Assembly (NCBI GenBank): GCA_900545625.1
Contig: UQZS01000019.1
Span: 1-31,374 of the forward strand
From: an uncultured Oscillospiraceae bacterium
GTDB lineage: Bacteria > Bacillota > Clostridia > Oscillospirales > Acutalibacteraceae
Length of the DNA: 31,374 bases
Direction: 5' to 3'
The notes beneath the pieces were generated by a model. That model saw only the letters and a list, made by a program, of their open reading frames with translations. It was not told where the DNA came from and ran no database searches. Each line of letters begins with the position of its first letter. The first letter of the stretch is position 1. Shown one piece after another: positions 9,785 to 21,104 of the stretch. The position numbers were made by a program, and so were the translations under genes.

Positions 9785-10765
9785 ATGTACAGAAAGATCA
9801 CGGCCGTTGTTCTTGTAGGGGTGTTGCTGCTTGCCTCGTTCGGCTGCATGCACACGGCAGAGCAGACGGTAGACTATGGCCTTGCAGAAAACTGGGCTTA
9901 TCTTGAGATCGACGAAACCGGGCGCGCGGATGTGTTCTTCGTTTGCCCGACCGTTTACGGCGGCAGCGCGGATAGCTTCAATATGCCTTTGGATGACGCT
10001 TCGGCGAAAGCAGATTTTGTCGGGGCTACCAACATGGAAAAAGGGATATATGACGCGGGGTGTCGTTTCTTTGCACCGTACTATCGGCAGGCGGGGCTGA
10101 ATGCTTATGCGCTGTCCGCGCAGGAGCGGGAGGAATACCTGGCTTTTGCCTATGCGGATGTGAAAAATGCTTTTCTTTACTATATGGAGCATTATAACGA
10201 GGGGCAGCCCATTATTTTGGCGGGCTTTTCCCAAGGGGCAGATCTATGCCTGCGGCTTTTGAAGGATTGCTTTGCCGACGAAGCGACAGCGTCTTTGCTT
10301 GTCGCCTGCTATGCGATCGGCTGGAGCATTTCCGAAGAAGAGCTGGCGGCATATCCGCATATGCAGTTCGCCTCCGGCGAGCGGGATACCGGGGTGATCG
10401 TTTCTTTTAACAGCGAAGCGGAAGAAATTGACGATTCTCTGATCATACCTGCCGGTACGCATACGCTGGCGATCAATCCGCTCAATTGGAAAACCGATGG
10501 CACGCCTGCGGATAAATCCGAAAACTTGGGCGCTTGCTTCACGGATTATGAGGGGAATATCCAAACAGAGATCCCGCATTTGACCGGTGCCTATATCGAT
10601 CCGGAGCGCGGCGCATTGAAAATAACGGATGTTTCCGCGCAGGAGTATCCCGCGGGATTATCTATATTCCGGGACGGCATATATCATATCTATGATTACC
10701 AATTCTTTTACCGTAACCTCCAGGAAAATGTCGGCGTGCGGTTAGACGCCTATTTTGCCGCATAG
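9785..10765 (+). CDS. DUF3089-like alpha/beta hydrolase, probable lipoprotein
   Basis: This 326-residue exported protein has a signal peptide (about 1-20) ending in ASFGC. Cys21 is a probable lipidation site, although the lipobox is not canonical at -3 and -2. The mature part resembles the DUF3089 family: VFFVCPTVYGG near residue 50, a nucleophile elbow GFSQG (Ser149), and the family-like C-terminal YHIYDYQFFYRNLQENV. Hydrolysis of an ester or peptide bond is likely from the GxSxG elbow; the substrate is unknown. I choose ATG 9785 because AAAGGGGG ends 10 nt upstream; the in-frame TTG at 9776 is too close to that site. It is a single gene between the tRNA-Leu terminator and the CRISPR locus, with no evident functional link to cas genes. 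Confidence 0.78.
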   Translation: MYRKITAVVLVGVLLLASFGCMHTAEQTVDYGLAENWAYLEIDETGRADVFFVCPTVYGGSADSFNMPLDDASAKADFVGATNMEKGIYDAGCRFFAPYYRQAGLNAYALSAQEREEYLAFAYADVKNAFLYYMEHYNEGQPIILAGFSQGADLCLRLLKDCFADEATASLLVACYAIGWSISEEELAAYPHMQFASGERDTGVIVSFNSEAEEIDDSLIIPAGTHTLAINPLNWKTDGTPADKSENLGACFTDYEGNIQTEIPHLTGAYIDPERGALKITDVSAQEYPAGLSIFRDGIYHIYDYQFFYRNLQENVGVRLDAYFAA

Positions 10766-11060
10766 CGAGCCGATTGGATTCATTTCTCCAAATCGCTTCA
10801 CGCGATGCGGGCACAACCTTTTCAAAAGCCGGCAGATAGGATGCTTCCCGCCTTTTTCAAAAAAGCATCTTGCGATTTATTTATTTGATACGAGCGTTGC
10901 AGAGCATATTGAACCTTCGTTCCATTTTGCAGATCTTGGTTCAATATGCTCTGTTTTTTCGCAGTCTTTTTCCCGGGCAATGCGGTAAAGTCCGTATTAT
11001 GGGACTTAGTATGTGCTATGCTGTGGCTATGTGGGGAAAGTACTGCGGCAGGGATATATT
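10766..11060. other. Intergenic stretch without a recognisable gene
   Basis: I see no credible coding sequence here. It holds the strong terminator at 10900-10959 and, before it, a dyad GGATGCTT/AAGCATC. The part at about 10990-11060 has short near-repeats (GCTATGCTGTGGCTATG) but nothing I can name. Confidence 0.5.
10900..10959 (+). terminator. Long-stem terminator downstream of the DUF3089 gene
   Basis: CAGAGCATATTGAACC and GGTTCAATATGCTCTG form a perfect 16-bp stem around a 22-nt loop, followed by TTTTTT. Confidence 0.85.
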
Positions 11061-11067
11061 GAAAACG

Positions 11068-11100
11068 CAAAGGGCAGCAGGAAATTCCCGCTGCCCTTTG
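11068..11100 (-). terminator. Terminator-like hairpin closing the crRNA-like RNA
   Basis: CAAAGGGCAGC and GCTGCCCTTTG form a perfect 11-bp stem that extends inward (GG/CC) towards a small loop. On the minus strand it is followed by CGTTTTC, a weak T-tract. It occupies the place where a second CRISPR repeat would stand. Confidence 0.55.
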
Positions 11101-11131
11101 GGCTTTCGGCATAGCCGCAATAAAAATTCTT

Positions 11132-11164
11132 TTTTCTATCCACATCAACGGAGCGCCTGATGAC
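11132..11164 (-). repeat. Degenerate type I-C CRISPR repeat, solitary, upstream of cas3
   Basis: It is 33 nt, the same length as the array repeats. Positions 1-3 (GTC) and 22-32 (GTGGATAGAAA) are identical to them. The 18-nt centre is ATCAGGCGCTCCGTTGAT, which can still pair ATCAG with TTGAT (four Watson-Crick pairs and one G-U) directly before the conserved G22, the expected Cas5c cleavage site. Confidence 0.8.
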
Positions 11165-11170
11165 AAATAT

Positions 11171-11199
11171 ATTATACACATTTTTTAATACAGTGACAA
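11171..11199 (-). promoter_or_regulatory. Promoter of the crRNA-like RNA
   Basis: On the minus strand TTGTCA (plus 11194-11199) and TATAAT (plus 11171-11176) are 17 bp apart. The predicted start, 7 nt after the -10 box, is 11164, the first base of the degenerate repeat. Confidence 0.8.
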
Positions 11200-11225
11200 G
11201 ATATTTCAAAATGTTAGAAAAACAC

Positions 11226-11286
11226 TTGACAAATGTTATTTTTTGCCCCATTATTATATTGTGATGTTTTATAACCTCACTATAAC
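11226..11286 (+). promoter_or_regulatory. cas operon promoter region (two candidate promoters)
   Basis: Candidate 1 has TTGACA (11226-11231) with a weak -10 such as CATTAT (11249-11254, 17 bp). Candidate 2 has TTGTGA (11259-11264), 16 bp, TATAAC (11281-11286). Sequence alone does not decide between them. The region is strongly AT-rich. Confidence 0.6.
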
Positions 11287-11291
11287 TTCTT
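11257..11291 (-). promoter_or_regulatory. Candidate protospacer for the crRNA-like RNA in the cas3 promoter/leader
   Basis: Read on the minus strand from 11291, AAGAAGTTATAGTGAGG pairs with the guide at positions 1-5, 7-8, 10-11, 13-14 and 16-17, and TAT at 19-21 also matches. Mismatches fall at 6, 9, 12, 15 and 18. The adjacent PAM-side triplet is TTT, compatible with relaxed I-C PAMs (TTC preferred). Cascade bound here would cover candidate promoter 2 and the transcribed leader up to the ribosome binding site. Confidence 0.6.
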
Positions 11292-11312
11292 AAATAAAAA
11301 AGGAGGGTATAC

Positions 11313-13739
11313 ATGGAGTCTATTCCGCTCGCACACACGCGCCAGGGGAGCGGCGAAGCCGGTGTTCAGACGCTGCAGGAGCACAGCCGCCATGTCGCCG
11401 AGATTTGCGCGGCGCTGAGCGGCAGGATCGGGCTTCGTAACTTAGGGTATTTAACAGGCCTTTTGCACGATGCGGGCAAGGCGCATCCAAAATGGCAGAC
11501 ACATTTGCGCGAAAACACATCCGAAAAGCCGGGGCATGCTTACGCGGGGATGCTCTGGCTCTGGGAAAACCGCACAGGCGGCGGGGATTCACAAAACCTT
11601 GCCGCGCAGTTTGCCACGCTGGCGATCGGCTGTCACCACAGCGGCAGGTGCGATATGATCTCGCCGGATGGAATCGATTGCTTCAGAGAACGTATGGCTG
11701 CCGCGCATGCCGATTCGATGTATATGGAAAGCATGAATCATTTTTTTGCGCATTGCTGCACAAAAGCCGAAGTTTATGCGCTGCTGGAAAGCGCCGCAGA
11801 GGAACTGCACGCGTTGTGCGGGCGCGTCGCGGCGGCGTTTCCGTTACAGGGCGAGGATAGGCAGGCGAACAAGCGGTATGCAAACAGCGTCCGTTTTGCC
11901 ATGGGTCTTGTCCAGCGCTTTTTATTCAGCGCCTTGGTGGATGCTGACTGGACCGACACCGCCTGTTTTATGCAAAACCGTCCGCTGCCAAAAGAGCCGG
12001 ACGATATACAGCGGCAAGGAACTTGGGACAAGCTGTCAGAACATACCGAGCAGTTTGTGACGGCATTGCCGGCGCTTTACCCCATAGATCGTCTGCGCCG
12101 GGATATCTCAGAACGATGTATGCGTGCCGCTGAGCGCTGCGGCGAGGGGGTCTATCGCCTTTGTGTGCCGACCGGCGGCGGAAAAACCTATGCGGGACTG
12201 CGCTTTTGTATGCAGATGGCAAAAAAGCACAATGCGCAGCACGTGTTTTATTTCTCACCGTATAAATCGATCACCGGACAAAACGCCGCCTGTATTCGGC
12301 AGGCGCTTGGCAGCGTGGATGCGGTGCTGGAACACCATTCCGACGTTCTCGCACCCGAAGAGAACACGGAAAGCGAACGCTTTTTAGCGCAGTCGCAGCG
12401 CTGGCAGGGGGTGCCGGTGATCTGTACGACGATGGTGCAGTTCCTGAATACATTGTTTGCCGCACCGCGGCAAAACGTGCGCCGGCTGTGTGCGCTTTCA
12501 AACAGTGTGCTGCTGTTTGATGAGATCCAGGTGTTGCCGCTGCAGCATACCTACCTGTTTAATTTGGCCGTCATGACGCTGTCTGAATTATTGCACTGTA
12601 CGGTCGTGTTGTGCACCGCCACACAGCCGACGCTGGAGCGCGCTGCCTACCCGCTGCGTTTTTCCGAACCTGTAGATCTGGTGGAAAACAGCAAAGACCT
12701 GTTCCTTCCGTTTTGCCGGACGCGTCTCATCCCAAAGTTGATCCCCGGCGGTATGCACGCACCGCAGCTTGCCGATTTCATTTGTGCGCAGGCACGGAAT
12801 AATCGAAGCATTTTGATCGTGCTCAATACGAAAAAAGCCGTCAACAGCCTGTTTGATGCGCTGCAGGGGCAGACACCGGCAGATACGAAGCTGTTTTGTC
12901 TGACGACTTATCTCTGCAGTCAGCACCGACGCGATGTGCTTACACAAATATCAAAAGCTTTGCGCAGCGGAGAACGGCTGATCTGCGTCAGCACCCAGCT
13001 GATCGAAGCGGGCGTGGACTTGAGTTTTGACTGTGTGGTGCGCAGCCTTGCAGGACTGCCGAATATCGCACAGGCTGCCGGACGCTGCAACCGCCACGGG
13101 CAGGGCGGCGTGCGCGATGTGTATCTGGTCGTGTGTGCCGATGAGGATCTGCGCCATCTGCCGGAGATCGACGATGCGCGGCGGATCACACGCGACTTAC
13201 TCGACACGTGCGATCCAAACACCGACCTGCTTTCCCCGCAAATGATGGACGCCTATTTCCGGCAGTATTACGAGAACGCGGCGCAGTCGAACAAGGCGGC
13301 GTATCCCGCACCGGGGCGTGACTTACCGCAAAATACCACGCTTTTGGATCTGCTGTCGAGTAATACTTGCGGTGTGCGGGCGTTCGTGGAAAGCGGGCAT
13401 AAAAGGCCCGGAACATGGAGTCTGTGCCAAGCATTCGGCACGGCGGAGCGCCTGTTTGAAGCCATAGCCGACGCTGCGGTTCCCGTGCTGGTGCCGTATA
13501 AAGAAGGCGTACGAAAAATCGCAGAGCTGTTTTCCTTGTCGCCGGATAAGGTGCGGTTGTCCGATCTGCAGCCCTATACCGTATCGCTTGGGAAAAGAGA
13601 TGTGGACAGGCTCGAACAAGCGGGCGCGGTTTATCCTGCCCTGCAGGGTGCGGTGCGCGTCTTGCGGGAAGAATTCTATGACAGCGAGAAGATCGGTGTT
13701 CGCATACAGGCGGAGGCTGTGCCGCCCTGTTTCGTATAA
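11313..13739 (+). CDS. cas3: CRISPR-associated nuclease-helicase Cas3 (type I-C)
   Basis: This 808-residue effector nuclease is recruited by Cascade to unwind and degrade target DNA. The N-terminal HD nuclease domain shows LQEHSRHV (His24/27), LLHDAGK (His52-Asp53) and GCHHSG (His108-His109). The SF2 helicase follows: Walker A PTGGGKT (286-292), Walker B DEIQ (403-406) followed by VLPLQHTYLF, motif III CTATQPT (434-440), and motif VI QAAGRCNRHGQ near 590. Length and order are normal for I-C and no key residue is missing. The ribosome binding site is AAGGAGGG at 11300-11307. It heads the cas operon, so repression at its promoter would affect all downstream cas genes. Confidence 0.96.
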   Translation: MESIPLAHTRQGSGEAGVQTLQEHSRHVAEICAALSGRIGLRNLGYLTGLLHDAGKAHPKWQTHLRENTSEKPGHAYAGMLWLWENRTGGGDSQNLAAQFATLAIGCHHSGRCDMISPDGIDCFRERMAAAHADSMYMESMNHFFAHCCTKAEVYALLESAAEELHALCGRVAAAFPLQGEDRQANKRYANSVRFAMGLVQRFLFSALVDADWTDTACFMQNRPLPKEPDDIQRQGTWDKLSEHTEQFVTALPALYPIDRLRRDISERCMRAAERCGEGVYRLCVPTGGGKTYAGLRFCMQMAKKHNAQHVFYFSPYKSITGQNAACIRQALGSVDAVLEHHSDVLAPEENTESERFLAQSQRWQGVPVICTTMVQFLNTLFAAPRQNVRRLCALSNSVLLFDEIQVLPLQHTYLFNLAVMTLSELLHCTVVLCTATQPTLERAAYPLRFSEPVDLVENSKDLFLPFCRTRLIPKLIPGGMHAPQLADFICAQARNNRSILIVLNTKKAVNSLFDALQGQTPADTKLFCLTTYLCSQHRRDVLTQISKALRSGERLICVSTQLIEAGVDLSFDCVVRSLAGLPNIAQAAGRCNRHGQGGVRDVYLVVCADEDLRHLPEIDDARRITRDLLDTCDPNTDLLSPQMMDAYFRQYYENAAQSNKAAYPAPGRDLPQNTTLLDLLSSNTCGVRAFVESGHKRPGTWSLCQAFGTAERLFEAIADAAVPVLVPYKEGVRKIAELFSLSPDKVRLSDLQPYTVSLGKRDVDRLEQAGAVYPALQGAVRVLREEFYDSEKIGVRIQAEAVPPCFV

Positions 13740-13772: not shown

Positions 13773-14516
13773 TTGGAACACGCCAATTCTATTTCCCTGC
13801 GGGTTTGGGGGCGGTATGCGCTGTTCAGCGACCCCATCACCCGCCTCGGCGGTGAAAAGTGCAGCTATCCGATCCCGACGTATCAGGCGATCAAAGGGAT
13901 CTTGGAAAGCTGTTACTGGAAGCCGACATTCGTCTGGGTGCCGGACGAGATCCGCATCCTGCGCCCCATTGAGACCGAGTCTAAAGGGGTGCGCCCGATT
14001 CAGTACAACAACGGGAAAAACGACCTGTCCATCTACACCTATTTGTCCGATGTCGAATATCAGGTGCGTGCGCATTTTGAATGGAATCTGCATCGCCCCG
14101 ACCTTGTGGGCGACCGGAACGAAAATAAGCACTATTTTATTGCAAAGCGCATGCTTGAGCGCGGCGGGCGCCGGGATGTTTTCCTCGGGACGCGCGAATG
14201 TCAGGGGTATATTGAACCCTGCGAATTCGGCGCGGGAACGGGCGCGTATGACAACACACCGCCTATGCCTCTGGGGCTGATGCTGCATGGCATCACCTAT
14301 GCGGATGAGTCCGGCGACGGGCATATGTACGAGCGTCTCTGGCGGCCCGTTATGCGCGCGGGCGTGGTGCAATTTGTACGCCCGGAAGACTGCCCGGTCG
14401 TGCGGCCCATCCGCAAACAAAATATTAAGACTTTCACGCTCGGCGAAACGGTCGAGCCTGTCGAACGTCTGTTTAAGGAGGTGGCGCCGCGTGGGATGGA
14501 TGGAACGCTGCTTTGA
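13773..14516 (+). CDS. cas5c: Cas5c (Cas5d), crRNA-processing endonuclease of type I-C Cascade
   Basis: This 247-residue RAMP protein takes over pre-crRNA cleavage in I-C systems, which lack Cas6, and stays bound to the 5' handle. The catalytic triad described for the Bacillus halodurans enzyme (Tyr46, Lys116, His117) has counterparts in Tyr48 (ESCYWKP) and Lys119-His120 ([12 protein letters not shown]). A C-terminal glycine/arginine-rich part (RGMDGTLL) ends the protein. The start is TTG 13773, 8 nt after a strong AAAGGAGG (13758-13764), with no ATG nearby in frame. It lies 33 nt after cas3 and overlaps cas8c by 26 nt. Confidence 0.93.
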
Positions 14517-16464
14517 AACCTATGAAAACAACCGGGATCTGATCGGCGTGCCTGCCCAAAAAGCGGTGAAGGATACCGGCAGGCGTGAAGCACCCATCCT
14601 GCTGCCGGTTGCCCATACGACCCAAAAAGCCCATGTCGAGGTGAATCTCTCGGATGACGGCGTTTTTCAATCGGCTTGGGTGCTTCGCCCGGACGAGATG
14701 ACCACGATCATCCCCTGTACCGAAGAATCCGGTTCGCGTACCTCCGGCGCAGTTCCGCACCCGCTTGCGGATAAGCTGCAATATATCGCGGGAGATTACA
14801 AGGCGTTCGGCGGTCCGAAAGCAAGCGCGTGGGAACCGTATCTGGAGCAGCTTCGCGCATGGTGTGCCTCACCGTACAGCCACCCAAAGGTGCGCGCGGT
14901 GCTGACTTATTTGGAAAAAGGCTGCCTGATCGCTGACCTTGTGCGCGAACGTATCCTGTACACAGACGCAGCGGGACATTTGCTGCAAAAGTGGGATGGC
15001 ACAAAAGACGAAACCCCCGCCATATTTGGAGTTTTGACCGGCGGCGACGAGTTCGAGACCTTCGTGCGTTTCCGCGTCGGCGGCGTAGCGCTCGCAGGGA
15101 ACAAAGCAGTACAGGAAAGCTACATCCGCTATTATCTTTCCGCCATGCAGCAAACGGATTTCTGCTATGTGCAGGGGGAAAGCATGCCGGTCTCACGCTT
15201 AAGCCCCGCAAAGATCCGCAACGCGGGCGATAAAGCCAAGCTGATCTCCAGCAACGATAGTCAGAATTTCACATATCGTGGACGCTTTGAAAATGCCGAA
15301 CAGGCGCTGAGTGTCGGCTACGAGACCACGCAAAAAGCACATAACGCGCTGCGTTGGCTTTGCGGGCGGCAGGGCGTGCAGAACGGCGACCAGACCATCC
15401 TGGTCTGGGGTACGGAAAACGAGCCGATCCCCGCCGTTACGGCAGATACTTTGGAACTTACCGAAAACGCACCCGGCCTATCCGACCTGCCGACACTGCC
15501 AAACGATTTTGAGACGGAAAAGGCGCAGCCGACCACGCGGGAGGCTTTTGCCCTGCAATTCAAAAAAGCGGTGCAGGGGTATCGCGCAAAGCTGGGCGCA
15601 CATTCCAAGATCACCGTCATGGTGCTGGATTCCGCAACGCCGGGTCGGCTGTCCGTCCGCTATTATCGGGAGCTTTCCGGCTCGCGGCTCGTCGATTGCG
15701 TGGAGGATTGGCATCAAAGCTTTGCTTGGGAGCTGCGCTACCGTAAAGTCGAAATTCCGCAGTCCGGCGGCAAGCCGGCCTTAAACCCCATAACCTTTCT
15801 CGGCGCGCCTGCACCTGCGGATATTGCCAAAGCAGCATACGGCGAGCGCGTCGACCAAAAGCTCAAGCAGCAGACCATTGAACGGCTGCTGCCCTGCATC
15901 ACGGAGGGCAGGCGATTCCCGCGCGACCTAATGCTTTCCGCCGTACACCGCGCATCCAACAGCGTCGCTCTGGACACTTGGGAAGCGAACAAGACGCGCA
16001 GCATTGCCTGTGCCTTGGTGCGCGGCTATTATCACCGAAATCTAAAGGAGGATTTTTCTATGGCAGTTCAAAACGATTGCAACGACCGCAGCTATTTGTT
16101 CGGACGCATCCTTGCCTATGCCGAACAGATCGAGTATACCGCCTCGCGCGCGCAGGATATCGCACCCGCCGACCGGCGGCCGACCAACGCGCTGCGTTAT
16201 GAGGTCGCGTTCACGATCCATCCCGCCAAAACGACCGCGCTGCTTGAAACACAGCTTCAACCGTACCTGACCCGTTTGGCAAGGGCGGGAAAATCTTCTT
16301 ATCTGCACGATCGGATGCTGGAACTTATGGATCGGCTGAAATTGGATGGCTTTACAAATCAACCGCTTTCAGAACTGTATCTGCTGGGCTATGCCGCGCA
16401 GCGTATGGAATTTATCAAAAAACACGATGCCGAAAACGACGCCCAATCTACTGTTTCTGAATAA
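14491..16464 (+). CDS. cas8c: Cas8c (Csd1), large subunit of type I-C Cascade
   Basis: This 657-residue large subunit recognises the PAM and helps to recruit Cas3. Family-like features are the N-terminal [12 protein letters not shown], the [19 protein letters not shown] region (here [16 protein letters not shown] near residue 175), and the late LGRYYHRN-like segment (VRGYYHRN). The frame is open further upstream, but GTG 14491 lies 9 nt after AAGGAGG (14475-14481) inside the end of cas5c and gives the usual N-terminus and length. The last 134 codons can be translated separately as Cas11c from an internal start with its own strong ribosome binding site (see 16060-16464). Confidence 0.93.
16044..16464 (+). 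CDS. cas11c: Cas11c small subunit from an internal start within cas8c (gene begins at ATG 16060)
   Basis: The coding part is 16060-16464 (134 codons), in the same frame as cas8c; the interval starts at its ribosome binding site. AAAGGAGG (16044-16051) sits 8 nt before the ATG ([15 protein letters not shown]), a signal as strong as those of the independent cas genes and without purpose for cas8c itself. Production of a small alpha-helical subunit by internal initiation within cas8 is established for type I-C and related systems. Cas11c lines the Cascade backbone and supports R-loop formation. Existence as a separate protein is inferred from the signal and position. Confidence 0.85.
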
Positions 16465-16484: not shown

Positions 16485-17339
16485 ATGAAAACTTTACAGA
16501 ACAAAATCGACTTTGCACTTGTCCTTGCCGTCCGACACGCCAATCCGAACGGCGATCCGCTCAACGGCAACCGCCCGCGTGAGACCTATGAGGGCTTCGG
16601 CGAAATTTCGGACGTCTGTCTCAAACGAAAGATCCGCAACCGCCTGATGGACATGGGCGAATGTGTTTTCGTACAATCCGATGACCGCTGTACAGACGGC
16701 CTCCACAGCCTCAAAGAGCGCGCAGATGCCTGCCCCGAGCTTGTGGCAGCGAGCAAAGCGAAAGACCGCGAGGCCTATGCGCAGGCTGCCTGCGAGACTT
16801 GGCTGGATGTGCGCAGCTTCGGACAGGTGTTTGCATTTAAATCGAAAGGAGATGGTGTTTCCGTCGGCGTGCGCGGCCCGGTTTCGATCCACCCTGCGTT
16901 CAGCGTGGATCCCATTACCATTGACAGCCTGCAGATCACAAAAAGTGTGAATGGTGAACCCGGCGATAAAAAATCGAGCGATACCATGGGCGCCAAGCAC
17001 CGCGTTGGTTTCGGCGTATATACCACGTTCGGCAGCATCAACTGCCAGCTTGCTGAAAAGACGGGCTTTACCGACGCGGACGCAGAAAGCATCAAACACG
17101 CGCTCTGCACGCTGTTTGAAAACGACGCTTCCTCCGCGCGTCCCGACGGCAGCATGGAGGTGCTTCGCGTATATTGGTGGCGGCACAACTGCAAAAGCGG
17201 GCAATATCCGTCTGCCAAAGTCCACCGCTTGCTGAAGGTGGAGAAAAAAACGGATGCGCCGCGCACGATCGAGGATTACAATATCACCTGCGATACGCTG
17301 CCTGATCTCGCGGTGGAAGTCTATGGCGACGAATCCTGA
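16485..17339 (+). CDS. cas7c: Cas7c (Csd2), backbone subunit of type I-C Cascade
   Basis: This 284-residue RAMP protein polymerises along the crRNA spacer. Typical features are the N-terminal LVLAVRHANPNGDPLNGNRPR, then DVCLKRKIRNRLMDMG (about 45-60), GVRGPVSIHPAFSVDP, and MGAKHRVGFGVYTTFGSIN around residue 165-185. The C-terminal YWWRHNCKSGQYPSAKVHRLLKVE is also characteristic. GGAGG lies before ATG 16485, 20 nt after cas8c. It overlaps the cas4 start by 17 nt. The segmental kinking of Cas7 every sixth base explains why guide positions 6, 12 and 18 need not pair, which matters for the crRNA-like RNA at 11061-11164. Confidence 0.95.
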   Translation: MKTLQNKIDFALVLAVRHANPNGDPLNGNRPRETYEGFGEISDVCLKRKIRNRLMDMGECVFVQSDDRCTDGLHSLKERADACPELVAASKAKDREAYAQAACETWLDVRSFGQVFAFKSKGDGVSVGVRGPVSIHPAFSVDPITIDSLQITKSVNGEPGDKKSSDTMGAKHRVGFGVYTTFGSINCQLAEKTGFTDADAESIKHALCTLFENDASSARPDGSMEVLRVYWWRHNCKSGQYPSAKVHRLLKVEKKTDAPRTIEDYNITCDTLPDLAVEVYGDES

Positions 17340-18000
17340 CGATTACCTCCCGCTGTCCGGCATCCAGCATTTCTGTTTTTGCCGGCGGCAGTGGGCACTG
17401 ATCCATCTTGAACAGCAGTGGGCGGAAAACCTGCGCACAGCACAGGGGCGGCTTCAGCATGCGCGCTGTCATGACGATACATATTCGGAATCGCGCGGAA
17501 ACTTACGCATTGTGCGCGGCATGCGCGTAGCTTCTCAAACACTGCGGCTGAACGGCGTATGCGATGTGGTGGAATTCCGCGCAGATCCGAACGGGATAGA
17601 GATCCAAGGGTGGTCGGGGACCTGGCACCCTTCTCCGGTGGAATATAAGCACGGTGTCCCGAAAGAACACGACGCTGACCGTTTGCAGCTTTGCGCGCAG
17701 GCAATGGCGCTGGAAGAAATGCTGGTTTGTACGATCCCGCGCGGCGCACTGTATTATGCGGGCACGCGGCGGCGCGAAGCAGTGGAACTGACTGCGGAGC
17801 TTCGACTGAAAACACAGACAATGGCGGACGAAATGCACGAACTGTATGCCCGCGGATACACGCCGAAGACCCGTCCCGGTAAGCATTGCAATGCCTGCTC
17901 CCTGAAAGAGCTCTGCTTGCCGGCACTTTGCCGCCGCGGTAATGTGTCGGGTTATATTCGCACACATCTTGAAGAAGCACAGCGGGGAGGGGAAACATGA
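17323..18000 (+). CDS. cas4: Cas4, Fe-S RecB-like exonuclease for spacer acquisition
   Basis: This 225-residue adaptation protein trims prespacers and helps to select the PAM and orientation. RecB-nuclease motifs are GRLQHARCH (His46), NGVCDVVEF (Asp81), PVEYKHG (Glu107-Lys109) and DADRLQLCAQA (Gln122). Cysteines for a [4Fe-4S] cluster are Cys18/Cys20 near the N-terminus and C189-x2-C192-x5-C198 (KHCNACSLKELC). I choose ATG 17323 (MATNPDDYLPLSGIQHF), which gives the normal N-terminus and overlaps the end of cas7c by 17 nt. Its stop overlaps cas1 by ATGA, so cas4 and cas1 are translationally coupled. Confidence 0.94.
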   Translation: MATNPDDYLPLSGIQHFCFCRRQWALIHLEQQWAENLRTAQGRLQHARCHDDTYSESRGNLRIVRGMRVASQTLRLNGVCDVVEFRADPNGIEIQGWSGTWHPSPVEYKHGVPKEHDADRLQLCAQAMALEEMLVCTIPRGALYYAGTRRREAVELTAELRLKTQTMADEMHELYARGYTPKTRPGKHCNACSLKELCLPALCRRGNVSGYIRTHLEEAQRGGET

Positions 18001-19028
18001 GAAAACTGCTCAATACGCTGTTTGTCCTAACCGAGGACAGCTACCTTACCCTGGATGGTGAAAACGTTGTGGTGCGCCGCGGCGAAGCGGAAACTGCTCG
18101 CTTTCCGCTGCATACTCTGGAGAGTATTCTATGCTTTTCTTATCCCGGCGCATCGCCTGCTTTGATGGGTGCATGTGCCGCGCACGGGGTGGATCTGGTC
18201 TTTTTCTCCCCGCGCGGAAAATTCCTGGCGCGCACGGTAGGCGAAACGCGCGGCAATGTCTTGCTGCGCCTGACGCAATGCCGCATAGCGGACAAAGAAG
18301 CAGAAAGCTGTCGGCTGGCGCGCAGCTTTATTCTCGGTAAGGTTTATAACGCCCGTTGGGTGCTCGAACGCGCTACGCGTGACCATCCGCAGCGGGTGCC
18401 TGTGGAACGGCTCAAAACAGTTTCCGCACAGCTCGCAGAAGCGCTCCCACGCATTGAAGCGTGCGCAGCACCGGAAGAACTGCGCGGGCTGGAGGGGGAG
18501 GCGGCACAGCGATATTTTGACGCGTTTGACAGCCTTATTTTGCAGCAGAGGGACACATTTGCGTTCCATGGGCGCAGCCGCCGCCCGCCACTCGACCCCA
18601 TCAATGCGCTTCTGTCCTTTGCCTATACTCTTTTGGCGCGGGATTGCACAGCCGCGTTGGAGGGCGTCGGGCTTGACCCGTATATCGGATTCCTGCACCG
18701 GCAGCGACCGGGTCGCTGCAGCCTTGCGCTTGACTTGATAGAGGAGCTGCGCTGCCCCTACGCCGACCGTTTTGTGCTTTCGTGTGTAAACCGAAAAATC
18801 GTAACAGACAGGCATTTTCAAAAACAGGAAAGCGGCGCCGTTCTGCTCAATGACGAGGGCAGGCGTGCATTTCTCGGCGCCTGGCAGCGCCGAAAACAGG
18901 AAACCTTGCAGCACCCGTTCCTGCACGAAAAGATCCCATGGGGATTGGTGCCCTATGTGCAGGCGCTGCTGTTGGCGAGAATGCTGCGCGGGGATCTGGA
19001 ACGTTATCCGCCATTTTTTTGGAAGTGA
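17997..19028 (+). CDS. cas1: Cas1, CRISPR integrase
   Basis: This 343-residue metal-dependent integrase inserts new spacers at the leader-proximal repeat. The catalytic residues are visible: Glu166 in RGLEGEAAQRYF, His234 in YIGFLHRQRPG, and Asp246 in SLALDLIEE. The N-terminal beta domain (LLNTLFVLTEDSYLTLDGENVVVR) is typical of I-C Cas1. Start and preceding stop overlap as ATGA (17997-18000). Nothing is truncated, so the adaptation module looks intact, which agrees with the uniform leader-proximal repeats in the array. Confidence 0.96.
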   Translation: MRKLLNTLFVLTEDSYLTLDGENVVVRRGEAETARFPLHTLESILCFSYPGASPALMGACAAHGVDLVFFSPRGKFLARTVGETRGNVLLRLTQCRIADKEAESCRLARSFILGKVYNARWVLERATRDHPQRVPVERLKTVSAQLAEALPRIEACAAPEELRGLEGEAAQRYFDAFDSLILQQRDTFAFHGRSRRPPLDPINALLSFAYTLLARDCTAALEGVGLDPYIGFLHRQRPGRCSLALDLIEELRCPYADRFVLSCVNRKIVTDRHFQKQESGAVLLNDEGRRAFLGAWQRRKQETLQHPFLHEKIPWGLVPYVQALLLARMLRGDLERYPPFFWK

Positions 19029-19037
19029 GGGAACGGA

Positions 19038-19328
19038 ATGCTGGTGCTTGTAACGTATGACGTTAATACGGAGACTGCGGCCGGGCGCAAGCGGCTGCGG
19101 CAGGTGGCAAAGCAGTGCGTAAATTACGGACAGCGTGTGCAGAATTCGGTGTTTGAATGTTTATTGGACGCTGCACAGTATGCAATGCTGAAGGCGCGCC
19201 TGACCGCGCTTATCGACGAGCAGATCGACAGCCTCCGTTTTTACAGGCTCGGAAATGCGTACCAAAGCAAGGTGGAACACGTCGGCAAAAGCCCGCGCTT
19301 CGCACAGGACGATGTTTTATTGTTGTGA
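19038..19328 (+). CDS. cas2: Cas2, CRISPR adaptation protein
   Basis: This 96-residue ferredoxin-fold protein forms the Cas1-Cas2 integration complex. The N-terminal strand MLVLVTYDVNTE carries the conserved Asp8. RLRQVAKQCVNYGQRVQNSVFECLLD matches the I-C Cas2 core, and the tail ends in FAQDDVLLL. The start is ATG 19038, 9 nt after the cas1 stop and preceded by GAGGGAACGG. It is the last cas gene; the leader and array follow on the same strand. Confidence 0.96.
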   Translation: MLVLVTYDVNTETAAGRKRLRQVAKQCVNYGQRVQNSVFECLLDAAQYAMLKARLTALIDEQIDSLRFYRLGNAYQSKVEHVGKSPRFAQDDVLLL

Positions 19329-19517
19329 TGTGCGGTGCGAACGTCAAGAGCACAGCCGTATGGCGTGCCTTTCGCACCGGAAAAATGAGGGTTGATGTGC
19401 AAACCGAAATCCAACAAATGCTTTTTATTTCGGTTTGTGGACAGTTTCAGAGTAAGATTTGTATAATCTGTCTATGATTTTGCCAATTTAATGCCTTTTG
19501 CCTTGGCACATTTTGCT
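19329..19517 (+). promoter_or_regulatory. CRISPR leader
   Basis: This is a 189-bp AT-rich stretch between cas2 and the first repeat. It holds a 9-bp inverted repeat CGGTGCGAA/TTCGCACCG (19334-19342, 19372-19380), an 11-bp inverted repeat CAAACCGAAAT/ATTTCGGTTTG (19400-19410, 19427-19437), and a promoter candidate TGGACA (19438-19443), 18 bp, TATAAT (19462-19467), about 50 nt before the array. This orientation agrees with array decay at the far end. Confidence 0.75.
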
Positions 19518-20771
19518 GTCGCTCCCCGCCCGGGGAGCGTGGATAGAAATTGTACAAGTCAATGTTAAAAACTTCGTGTGCGGTGGTCGCTCCCCGCACG
19601 GGGAGCGTGGATAGAAATATTACTATAATTGGCATTGTCGGGGGTATTGCCTGTCGCTCCCCGCACGGGGAGCGTGGATAGAAATTCTTTATCCTTGTAA
19701 AGAGGGGACAGGGGAGAAGCGCGTCGCTCCCCGCACGGGGAGCGTGGATAGAAATTGTTTTGATGTCTCGGGAAGTAGACAATGAACATGTCGCTCCCCG
19801 CACGGGGAGCGTGGATAGAAATCTAAACCATTGCGAATATCGCCGACAATACAAGAGTCGCTCCCCGCACGGGGAGCGTGGATAGAAATACCTTGCCGAA
19901 GCTCGTTTTCTCTATGTACGGATGAAGTCGCTCCCCGCACGGGGAGCGTGGATAGAAATAACTGCCGTCTCCCCGTCTATCGCCTTGTTGAACTGGTCGC
20001 TCCCCGCACGGGGAGCGTGGATAGAAATAATCACTATGACAATAAGCAACAAAGTCTTTGCAGTCGCTCCCCGCACGGGGAGCGTGGATAGAAATACTGC
20101 GTAATTACTACTTGAATAATTGTTAGTACGTCGCTCCCCGCACGGGGAGCGTGGATAGAAATTTGTCGGTTCGCGTTTTCTGCTCCATGAACCGCCCGTC
20201 GCTCCCCGCACGGGGAGCGTGGATAGAAATGCTCGGTAGGAGGGTGCGCGGCTAATGTTTGATTGGGTCGCTCCCCGCACGGGGAGCGTGGATAGAAATA
20301 TATATGACACTAAAGACGAACGGGAAAGCAACTGTCGCTCCCCGCACGGGGAGCGTGGATAGAAATCTTGTATAGTTATGTGCATTTGGTATGATGATTT
20401 TGGTCGCTCCCCGCACGGGGAGCGTGGATTGAAATCATTTTCTCGGTCCGAAAAATACTCAAGCGCATCCGTCGCTCCCCGCACGGGGAGCGTGGATTGA
20501 AATAACAGGCGAAATAACAAAGCGGTCAACGACGAAAGTCGCTCCCCGCACGGGGAGCGTGGATTGAAATATGGCGACGGTCATTGAAGTGCTACCACAA
20601 CACAAGTCGCTCCCCGCACGGGGAGCGTGGATTGAAATTTGACGCTGACCATGCGAAACTGCGTAGCGCGCGTCGCTCCCCGCACGGGGAGCGTGGATTG
20701 AAATTCGGACTGATCCGCACTTCATCTGATTTTGACATGTCGCTCCCCGCACGGGGAGCGTGGATTGAAAT
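19518..20771 (+). CRISPR. Type I-C CRISPR array: 19 intact repeats of 33 nt, 18 spacers of 33-37 nt
   Basis: Each repeat is GTC, then the hairpin GCTCCCCG-CA-CGGGGAGC, then a 12-nt 3' end GTGGATAGAAAT or GTGGATTGAAAT. Repeats start at 19518, 19586, 19653, 19723, 19790, 19857, 19927, 19996, 20063, 20130, 20198, 20267, 20334, 20403, 20471, 20538, 20606, 20672 and 20739. Repeat 1 has CC instead of CA in the hairpin loop. Repeats 1-13 end in ATAGAAAT and repeats 14-19 in ATTGAAAT. Cas5c cleavage after G22 would leave the handle TGGATAGAAAT. Spacers all differ, and I saw no match to this window by eye. Transcription runs on the plus strand from the leader. Confidence 0.98.
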
Positions 20772-20990
20772 TTCGGCGGGGACGATTCGATTCGTGAAAT
20801 TCTCGGCCACACCCCACACGGGTGTGCGGATAGAAACAAAATTTCCTTTTCGGTGTGGATTTAGGCCAACGGATGCCGCGCCGTTGCAAAGCTGCACAGG
20901 CCGCAAGGGCGCGCGGGTAGAAAAATTATAATTATATCGGTTTATGGGCGCTTCTTTATCGCGTCGAATCGGCGCGCGGATAGAAAAAAT
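20772..20990 (+). repeat. Decayed leader-distal end of the array with three degenerate repeats
   Basis: After a normal-length spacer (20772-20805), a 32-nt degenerate repeat (20806-20837) keeps a 7-bp stem CACACCC/GGGTGTG and ends GCGGATAGAAAC. A second ends GCGGGTAGAAAA at about 20924. A third (about 20958-20987) keeps CGCGTCG/CGGCGCG and ends CGGATAGAAAA. The last two are 63 nt apart, close to one repeat-spacer unit; the step between the first two is 87 nt. Confidence 0.7.
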
Positions 20991-21104
20991 ATCCTGGTTT
21001 TGGTTGGGGCTGTCAAAATGGCGGCCATGCATGTGGGGCAGGTGGGAAATACATAACCCCTGCCGCCCGCGCAATAAAATTCCACGCAAAACGCAGATTT
21101 TCAG

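Follow-up and report, generated by a model that had tools for sequence, protein, structure and literature searches.

A solitary repeat-guide unit upstream of cas3 as a predicted type I-C counterpart of the CreR autorepressors

Type I-C CRISPR-Cas systems are compact and in use for genome editing. The locus studied here lies in 31,374 nt of DNA from an uncultured Oscillospiraceae bacterium (contig UQZS01000019.1, positions 1–31,374, referred to below as the window) and raises the question of what a single degenerate CRISPR repeat with a predicted promoter of its own is doing upstream of cas3. The genes that follow stand in the order cas3, cas5c, cas8c, cas7c, cas4, cas1c, cas2 and array, which is a type I-C set (Table 1). 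Judged from its sequence, the unit is quite probably the I-C counterpart of CreR, a crRNA-like RNA by which the cas operon would repress itself.

The whole unit occupies positions 11199–11068 of the minus strand, divergent from cas3. A first-pass annotation had described four aligned elements, namely a promoter, a 33-nt repeat, a guide at 11131–11101 and a hairpin, and all of them were found where it had placed them. The first base of the repeat (11164), which it gave as the predicted transcription start, is the seventh past the −10 box. When the degenerate repeat was compared with the array repeat, 19 of 33 positions were identical, made up of the 5' GTC, the whole GTGGATAGAAA handle and five bases in the middle. 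The rest of the middle has been rewritten, in such a way that pairing is still possible (ATCAG with TTGAT). Handles of type I-C crRNAs are 11 nt long, and the exact core TGGATAGAAA occurs a single time in the window outside the array region (19400–20900). The unit is not an ordinary CRISPR array, which needs at least two near-identical repeats, as it holds one repeat with 19/33 identity to those of the array. As patterns alone, the promoter-like sites (3 in the unit region vs 1.7 in shuffles) and terminator-like sites (1 vs 0.9) are at chance level; what carries weight is their line-up with the repeat, seen both in this locus and in others. The 107-nt unit RNA was predicted to fold better than 200 of 200 shuffled sequences (z −5.0). 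Most of this excess stability is due to the terminator hairpin, and the minimum-energy structure of the RNA does not contain the short repeat stem.

Some features of the surroundings may be recorded here. Within the array (19518–20771), the first 13 repeats end in GGATAGAAAT and the last six in GGATTGAAAT, and the solitary unit has the A version. Three degenerate repeat-like stretches (repeat family D7) lie behind the array at 20821–20992. A long inverted repeat at 10900–10953 (AGAGCATATTGAACC ... GGTTCAATATGCTCT), followed by T's, is by eye probably a terminator.

Table 1. Positions of the solitary unit, its predicted target and the type I-C genes in the window
Feature	Positions	Strand	Basis or remark
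Unit promoter: TTGTCA (11199–11194), 17 nt, TATAAT (11176–11171)	11171..11199	−	sigma-70-like, 11/12 consensus positions
Degenerate type I-C repeat, 33 nt	11132..11164	−	GTC, rewritten stem-loop (ATCAG / TTGAT), GTGGATAGAAAA
5' handle (11 nt) predicted to remain after Cas5c cleavage	11132..11142	−	same as array handle except last base
Guide, 31 nt ahead of terminator stem	11101..11131	−	sequence
Terminator-like hairpin, 15 pairs, where a second repeat would stand	11068..11100	−	
Predicted target (protospacer), cas3 leader	11271..11291	−	16/21 bases equal guide
PAM position, TTT	11292..11294	−	sequence
cas3 promoter: TTGACA, 17 nt, CATTAT	11226..11254	+	10/12 consensus
cas3	11313..13739	+	TIGR01587 and TIGR01596 over cut-off
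cas5c, predicted processing enzyme	13773..14516	+	TIGR01876, 239 bits
cas8c, open frame, true start probably further down	14287..16464	+	TIGR01863
cas7c	16485..17339	+	TIGR02589
cas4, cas1c, cas2	17254..19328	+	TIGR00372, TIGR03640, TIGR01573
CRISPR array, 19 repeats found	19518..20771	+	repeat family D1

The guide was scanned against positions 10700–11420 and then against the whole 31,374-nt window. Its best match in the entire window was at 11291–11271, with a score of 13 compared to 9.5 for the runner-up, and this score was attained by 3 of 20,000 dinucleotide shuffles of 11165–11342. The earlier statement that the guide partly matches the cas3 promoter or leader thus stood as regards the match, while its vague wording can be replaced by a defined minus-strand site flanked by 5'-TTT, which lies between the cas3 promoter and the AGGAGGG ahead of the start codon, at −22 from cas3. 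Guide and target are identical at positions 1–5, 7, 8, 10, 11, 13, 14, 16, 17 and 19–21 and mismatched at 6, 9, 12, 15 and 18. According to the available text of PMC11127173, class 1 complexes flip every sixth base of the guide out, and three of the five mismatches (6, 12 and 18) would therefore be free of cost, as Cascade flips these very positions; 9 and 15 are non-flipped positions. For the I-C system of Neisseria lactamica, already employed as a repressor, the accessible part of PMC10865793 gives TTT and TTC as consensus PAMs. In the sister genome G001 (CAKMIX010000010.1, uncultured Clostridia), a single base differs over 11061–11312, at 11286, which corresponds to the flipped guide position 6, and the G001 guide matches its target at positions 1–8 without a gap.

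Type I-C loci were gathered by Cas3 or Cas5 hits in searches at the family, class and phylum levels and among plasmids. The searches contributed 21 of 54 matching genomes (longer flanks), 32 of 61 places and 43 of 55 places; the genomes of the 54-genome search that were set aside had for the most part only weak hits, which were assigned to other subtypes. Five of 37 plasmid records were taken, and L146 was scanned for handles only. From the 95 loci scanned, 10 without a cas5 or cas8 homologue were dropped. Of the 85 that remained, 79 including the window were accepted as I-C; in 74 of these the stretch ahead of cas3 measured 250 nt or more, and in five it was shorter. A minus-strand handle with no more than one mismatch, before cas3 or between cas3 and cas5c, was taken as the mark of a unit. 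In this way 19 units were found, and with one plus-strand unit (L115), identified by a match search that did not depend on the handle, the total came to 20 of the 79 loci. The carriers belong to nine families of the genome collection, plus one Paenibacillus plasmid. Nine of the 19 minus-strand units, including that of the window, are placed at −142 to −232 from cas3, and ten at −116 to −672 from cas5c. No unit was found in the other 59 of the 79 loci (the set of 79 including the five with less than 250 nt before cas3), nor in L032, whose cas3 is 83% identical to that of the window, and the unit is therefore dispensable. When the unit DNA was used as a query, 51 of 295 genomes showed matches at E up to 0.01, which were full-length only in G001 and no longer than 61 nt in the others. 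No relative of the window's cas3 turned up among the viral contigs.

In 18 of 19 units a stem of at least three pairs directly adjoins the handle, compared to a mean of 7.7 and a maximum of 14 in 500 shuffles, and the stem sequences are unrelated among units (e.g. GTATC-AATC-GATAC and AGC-GAAA-GCT). As raw counts, 15 of the 19 have a −10 hexamer with at most one mismatch 5–8 nt ahead of the repeat, and 12 of the 19 a terminator-like hairpin behind the guide.

Each guide was then scored against the DNA lying between its unit and the gene, or upstream of the unit in the case of L115, and neither the PAM nor positions 6, 12 and 18 counted towards the score. A match of at least 10 to the own locus was obtained for 17 of the 20 units and of at least 12 for 15 of them, all beside TTC or TTT. 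Among 1850 array spacers from 60 loci, used as a control, none reached 12 and nine reached 10, two of these with TTC or TTT. When the guides were swapped among the 19 minus-strand loci, only 6 of 342 combinations scored at least 10, four of them within two kin pairs; that swapped guides so rarely match means that guide and target change together. The two kin pairs, window/L101 (one lineage) and L060/L061, were each counted once in the position counts. This left 16 non-redundant units with a match, including L054 and its distant target. At guide positions 1–18 these matched in 16, 16, 16, 15, 16, 3, 16, 16, 14, 14, 16, 5, 15, 15, 15, 14, 10 and 6 cases, i.e. in 14–16 of the 16 units at the pairable positions up to 16, though in only three at position 6 and five at position 12, and beyond position 18 matches were near chance. 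The PAM was TTC in 15 of the 16 and TTT in one, the window. The clearest case is L084, whose cas3 is approximately 35% identical, with TTC, identity at 1–5, 7–11 and 13–18, and mismatches only at 6 and 12. Handle, seed and PAM are thus conserved jointly with a matching target in other I-C loci. The handle-independent search, which covered 116 segments of 81 loci, returned 17 hits with 0–1 handle mismatches, none with 2–3 and 434 with at least four. One of the 17, L124, with a 0-mismatch handle, was an edge artefact and was rejected.

The first-pass annotation had asked for a comparison of related loci to see whether repeat end, guide seed and target are conserved together. This was borne out by 17 of the 20 guides and failed in L095, where repeat and stem are kept while the guide match (5.5) is at background. 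The latter, together with the lack of a unit in L032 and with the TTT PAM and two non-flipped mismatches in the window, would fit a former autorepressor in decay, i.e. a real family of which the window's copy no longer represses. We consider this unlikely, as the promoter retains 11 of 12 consensus positions and the handle core and terminator-like hairpin are intact. Moreover, G001 matches at all of positions 1–8, and the one base changed in the window falls on flipped position 6, as expected under continued selection. Within the non-redundant set of 16, five units have a lower score than that of the window. The window's pairing, with its score of 13, its mismatches at 9 and 15 and the sole TTT, is nevertheless only mid-table in the family, which counts against an active autorepressor.

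The features of the matches also bear on how an active unit would recognise its target. The window's guide is the complement of the coding strand of cas3, so a simple antisense mechanism might be envisaged, in which the RNA pairs with the leader of the cas3 mRNA and has no need of Cascade. Four matching units out of the 17 (L060, L061, L085 and L113), however, carry a guide that equals the coding strand and cannot pair with the mRNA, and a TTC or TTT neighbour combined with free mismatches at every sixth base is a mark of Cascade on DNA. DNA targeting is favoured for these reasons, and antisense pairing appears extremely improbable. The same can be said of a Racr-type repeat mimic serving as a decoy that binds Cas proteins, the model for which is a solitary I-C repeat-like RNA of a Bifidobacterium prophage that acts against a I-C system (PMC10651486, from the text available). 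A decoy has no need of a guide match, yet guide, PAM and target have been kept together, and the unit adjoins a full set of host cas genes, which leaves this idea hardly credible for the window.

Most targets lie close to a cas gene start, 14 of the 17 matched sites being within 152 nt of that of cas3 or cas5c. Relative to cas3, eight sites fall between −14 and −152 (L084 at −14, L077 at −19, window and L101 at −22, L113 at −94, L060 at −105, L061 at −112 and L085 at −152); relative to cas5c, six fall between −8 and −58 (L056, L059, L072, L076, L094 and L118). Together with the 17 guides matching their own locus beside TTC or TTT, this distribution supports the autorepressor reading put forward in the first-pass annotation. 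The more distant targets are those of L078 (−301) and L109 (−600 from cas5c, as for L078) and of L115, which lies at −251 from cas3, directly ahead of its own repeat. In the latter locus, the stretch 220–275 nt upstream of cas3 shows TTC and a match at 15 of 15 pairable bases, as if the unit controlled itself. In L054, the only match is at −362 from cas3, on a TTGACA...TATATT promoter beyond its unit; no clear ORF stands behind this promoter, which might belong to a long cas3 leader or to an RNA gene. Several handle hits were rejected as units or left uncounted. Plus-strand hits before cas3 (L059, L117, L119, L122, L125, L132 twice and L143) and near cas5c (L087, L095, L112 and L140), as well as a second one in L118, had no guide match, and L002 (GTAGATTGAGAG) was dropped for lack of a target match.

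Two loci raise the prospect of a different client. In L109 (3850–4250), the target precedes a 79-aa ORF that matches DUF4062 (1.4e-10) between cas3 and cas5c, and the unit there possibly controls cargo or a toxin. In L143 (8480–8900), on a plasmid of Paenibacillus amylolyticus, a marginal TTC-flanked match, whose score of 8.0 was reached by 35 of 342 swaps, stands ahead of an 82-aa ORF without a Pfam match over the cut-off. As the best match in both loci precedes a small ORF between cas3 and cas5c, and as the unit has the same parts as CreA in the available descriptions, it could be asked whether the window's unit is a CreA-type antitoxin RNA that keeps a neighbouring toxin (CreT or CreP), and not cas3, repressed. 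For the window this seems very unlikely, since the match to the cas3 leader stands far ahead of all others, and within 10700–11420 no other site flanked by TTC, TTT or CTC agreed with the guide at over 7 of its first 12 positions. A non-coding block with an AAGTCC...GGGACTT palindrome at 10981–11045 is conserved in L032 although the unit is absent there, and is for that reason unlikely to be a toxin in need of the unit RNA.

In the preferred reading, that of a CreR counterpart acting on the cas operon, a short transcript is predicted to start at 11164 and would be trimmed by Cas5c, which leaves the handle. The trimmed RNA would be loaded into the type I-C Cascade, and this complex would then bind the cas3 leader to a depth of 17–21 bases and block transcription of cas3-cas5c-cas8c-cas7c-cas4-cas1-cas2 without cleavage by Cas3. 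The fading of the pairing behind guide position 17–21 would explain how binding could occur without destruction by Cas3. By analogy with CreR of other subtypes, abundant crRNAs or an anti-CRISPR might draw Cascade away and so release the operon.

On a wider scale, we regard it as fairly probable that I-C systems across the phylum repeatedly build one-repeat self-silencing genes de novo, each with a guide of its own and mostly directed at cas3 or cas5c promoters, in which the readable positions are kept and every sixth drifts, a trace of selection at the level of single bases. A minority would be directed elsewhere, as in L109 and L143, where the guide would address a promoter ahead of a small ORF that is not a cas gene (possible I-C addiction modules), and in the self-control suggested by L115. 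If the operon is indeed held down by a built-in guide RNA, cas levels would be set by the array load and by anti-CRISPRs, and deletion of the short unit could raise cas expression. The 16 non-redundant guide-target pairs can in addition be taken as a natural record of how I-C Cascade reads DNA, with TTC as PAM, pairable positions within 1–16 and positions 6 and 12 free.

It remains to place the unit among known systems. CreR, a crRNA-like RNA that regulates cas genes, was reportedly presented by Liu et al. in Cell Host & Microbe in 2023, and a survey by Shmakov et al. in NAR, also of 2023, is said to cover standalone repeats and mini-arrays that are crRNA-like and partly match cas promoters, mostly in type I systems. 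A literature search found no I-C autorepressor among the matches listed, as far as their available text goes, and an earlier entry in either of these two works is possible. A paper on E. lenta was rejected as a precedent, the autoregulation in its accessible text being a different one. RacrIC1 resembles the unit as a solitary I-C repeat-like RNA but is a prophage-encoded inhibitor, for which the available portion of the paper describes no guide-target match (PMC10651486). The long tracrRNA of Cas9 is alike in that a repeat-derived RNA turns the effector into a regulator of its own genes, though in type II and with another RNA and enzyme (PMC8730458, available text). Closer in build is the creA of Haloarcula hispanica, which in the accessible text of PMC8501985 has a one-repeat form with a terminator and gave more RNA with a second repeat. 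A TTC PAM is moreover given for the module of Halobacterium hubeiense in the available parts of the CreTA papers (PMC8501985, PMC9458426). CreA, however, represses a toxin, while the target in the window is the cas3 leader and not a toxin promoter as in CreTA.

The closest likeness is to CreR, which reviews, in the passages available, describe as a crRNA-like RNA with limited complementarity to its own cas promoter that exerts autorepression (PMC12737573, PMC12948488, PMC13131331). A 2026 review lists CreRs from I-B, I-E and V-A (PMC13131331), and another speaks more broadly of type I and V-A (PMC12737573). The doubt of the first-pass annotation as to whether an I-C example had been described is thereby settled in part, in that I-C is missing from the former list in the text available. 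The window shares with CreR a repeat-like sequence outside the array with an intact handle and, beside a PAM (TTT), a partial match of the guide to its own cas promoter region; these parts and the match are seen, while repression is predicted. It differs in belonging to a I-C locus, in the predicted processing by Cas5c, and in the single repeat with a terminator-like hairpin in place of the second. As its cas genes are of type I-C and thus outside the list of I-B, I-E and V-A, the unit is best called a predicted I-C counterpart of CreR, not a member of a tested subtype.
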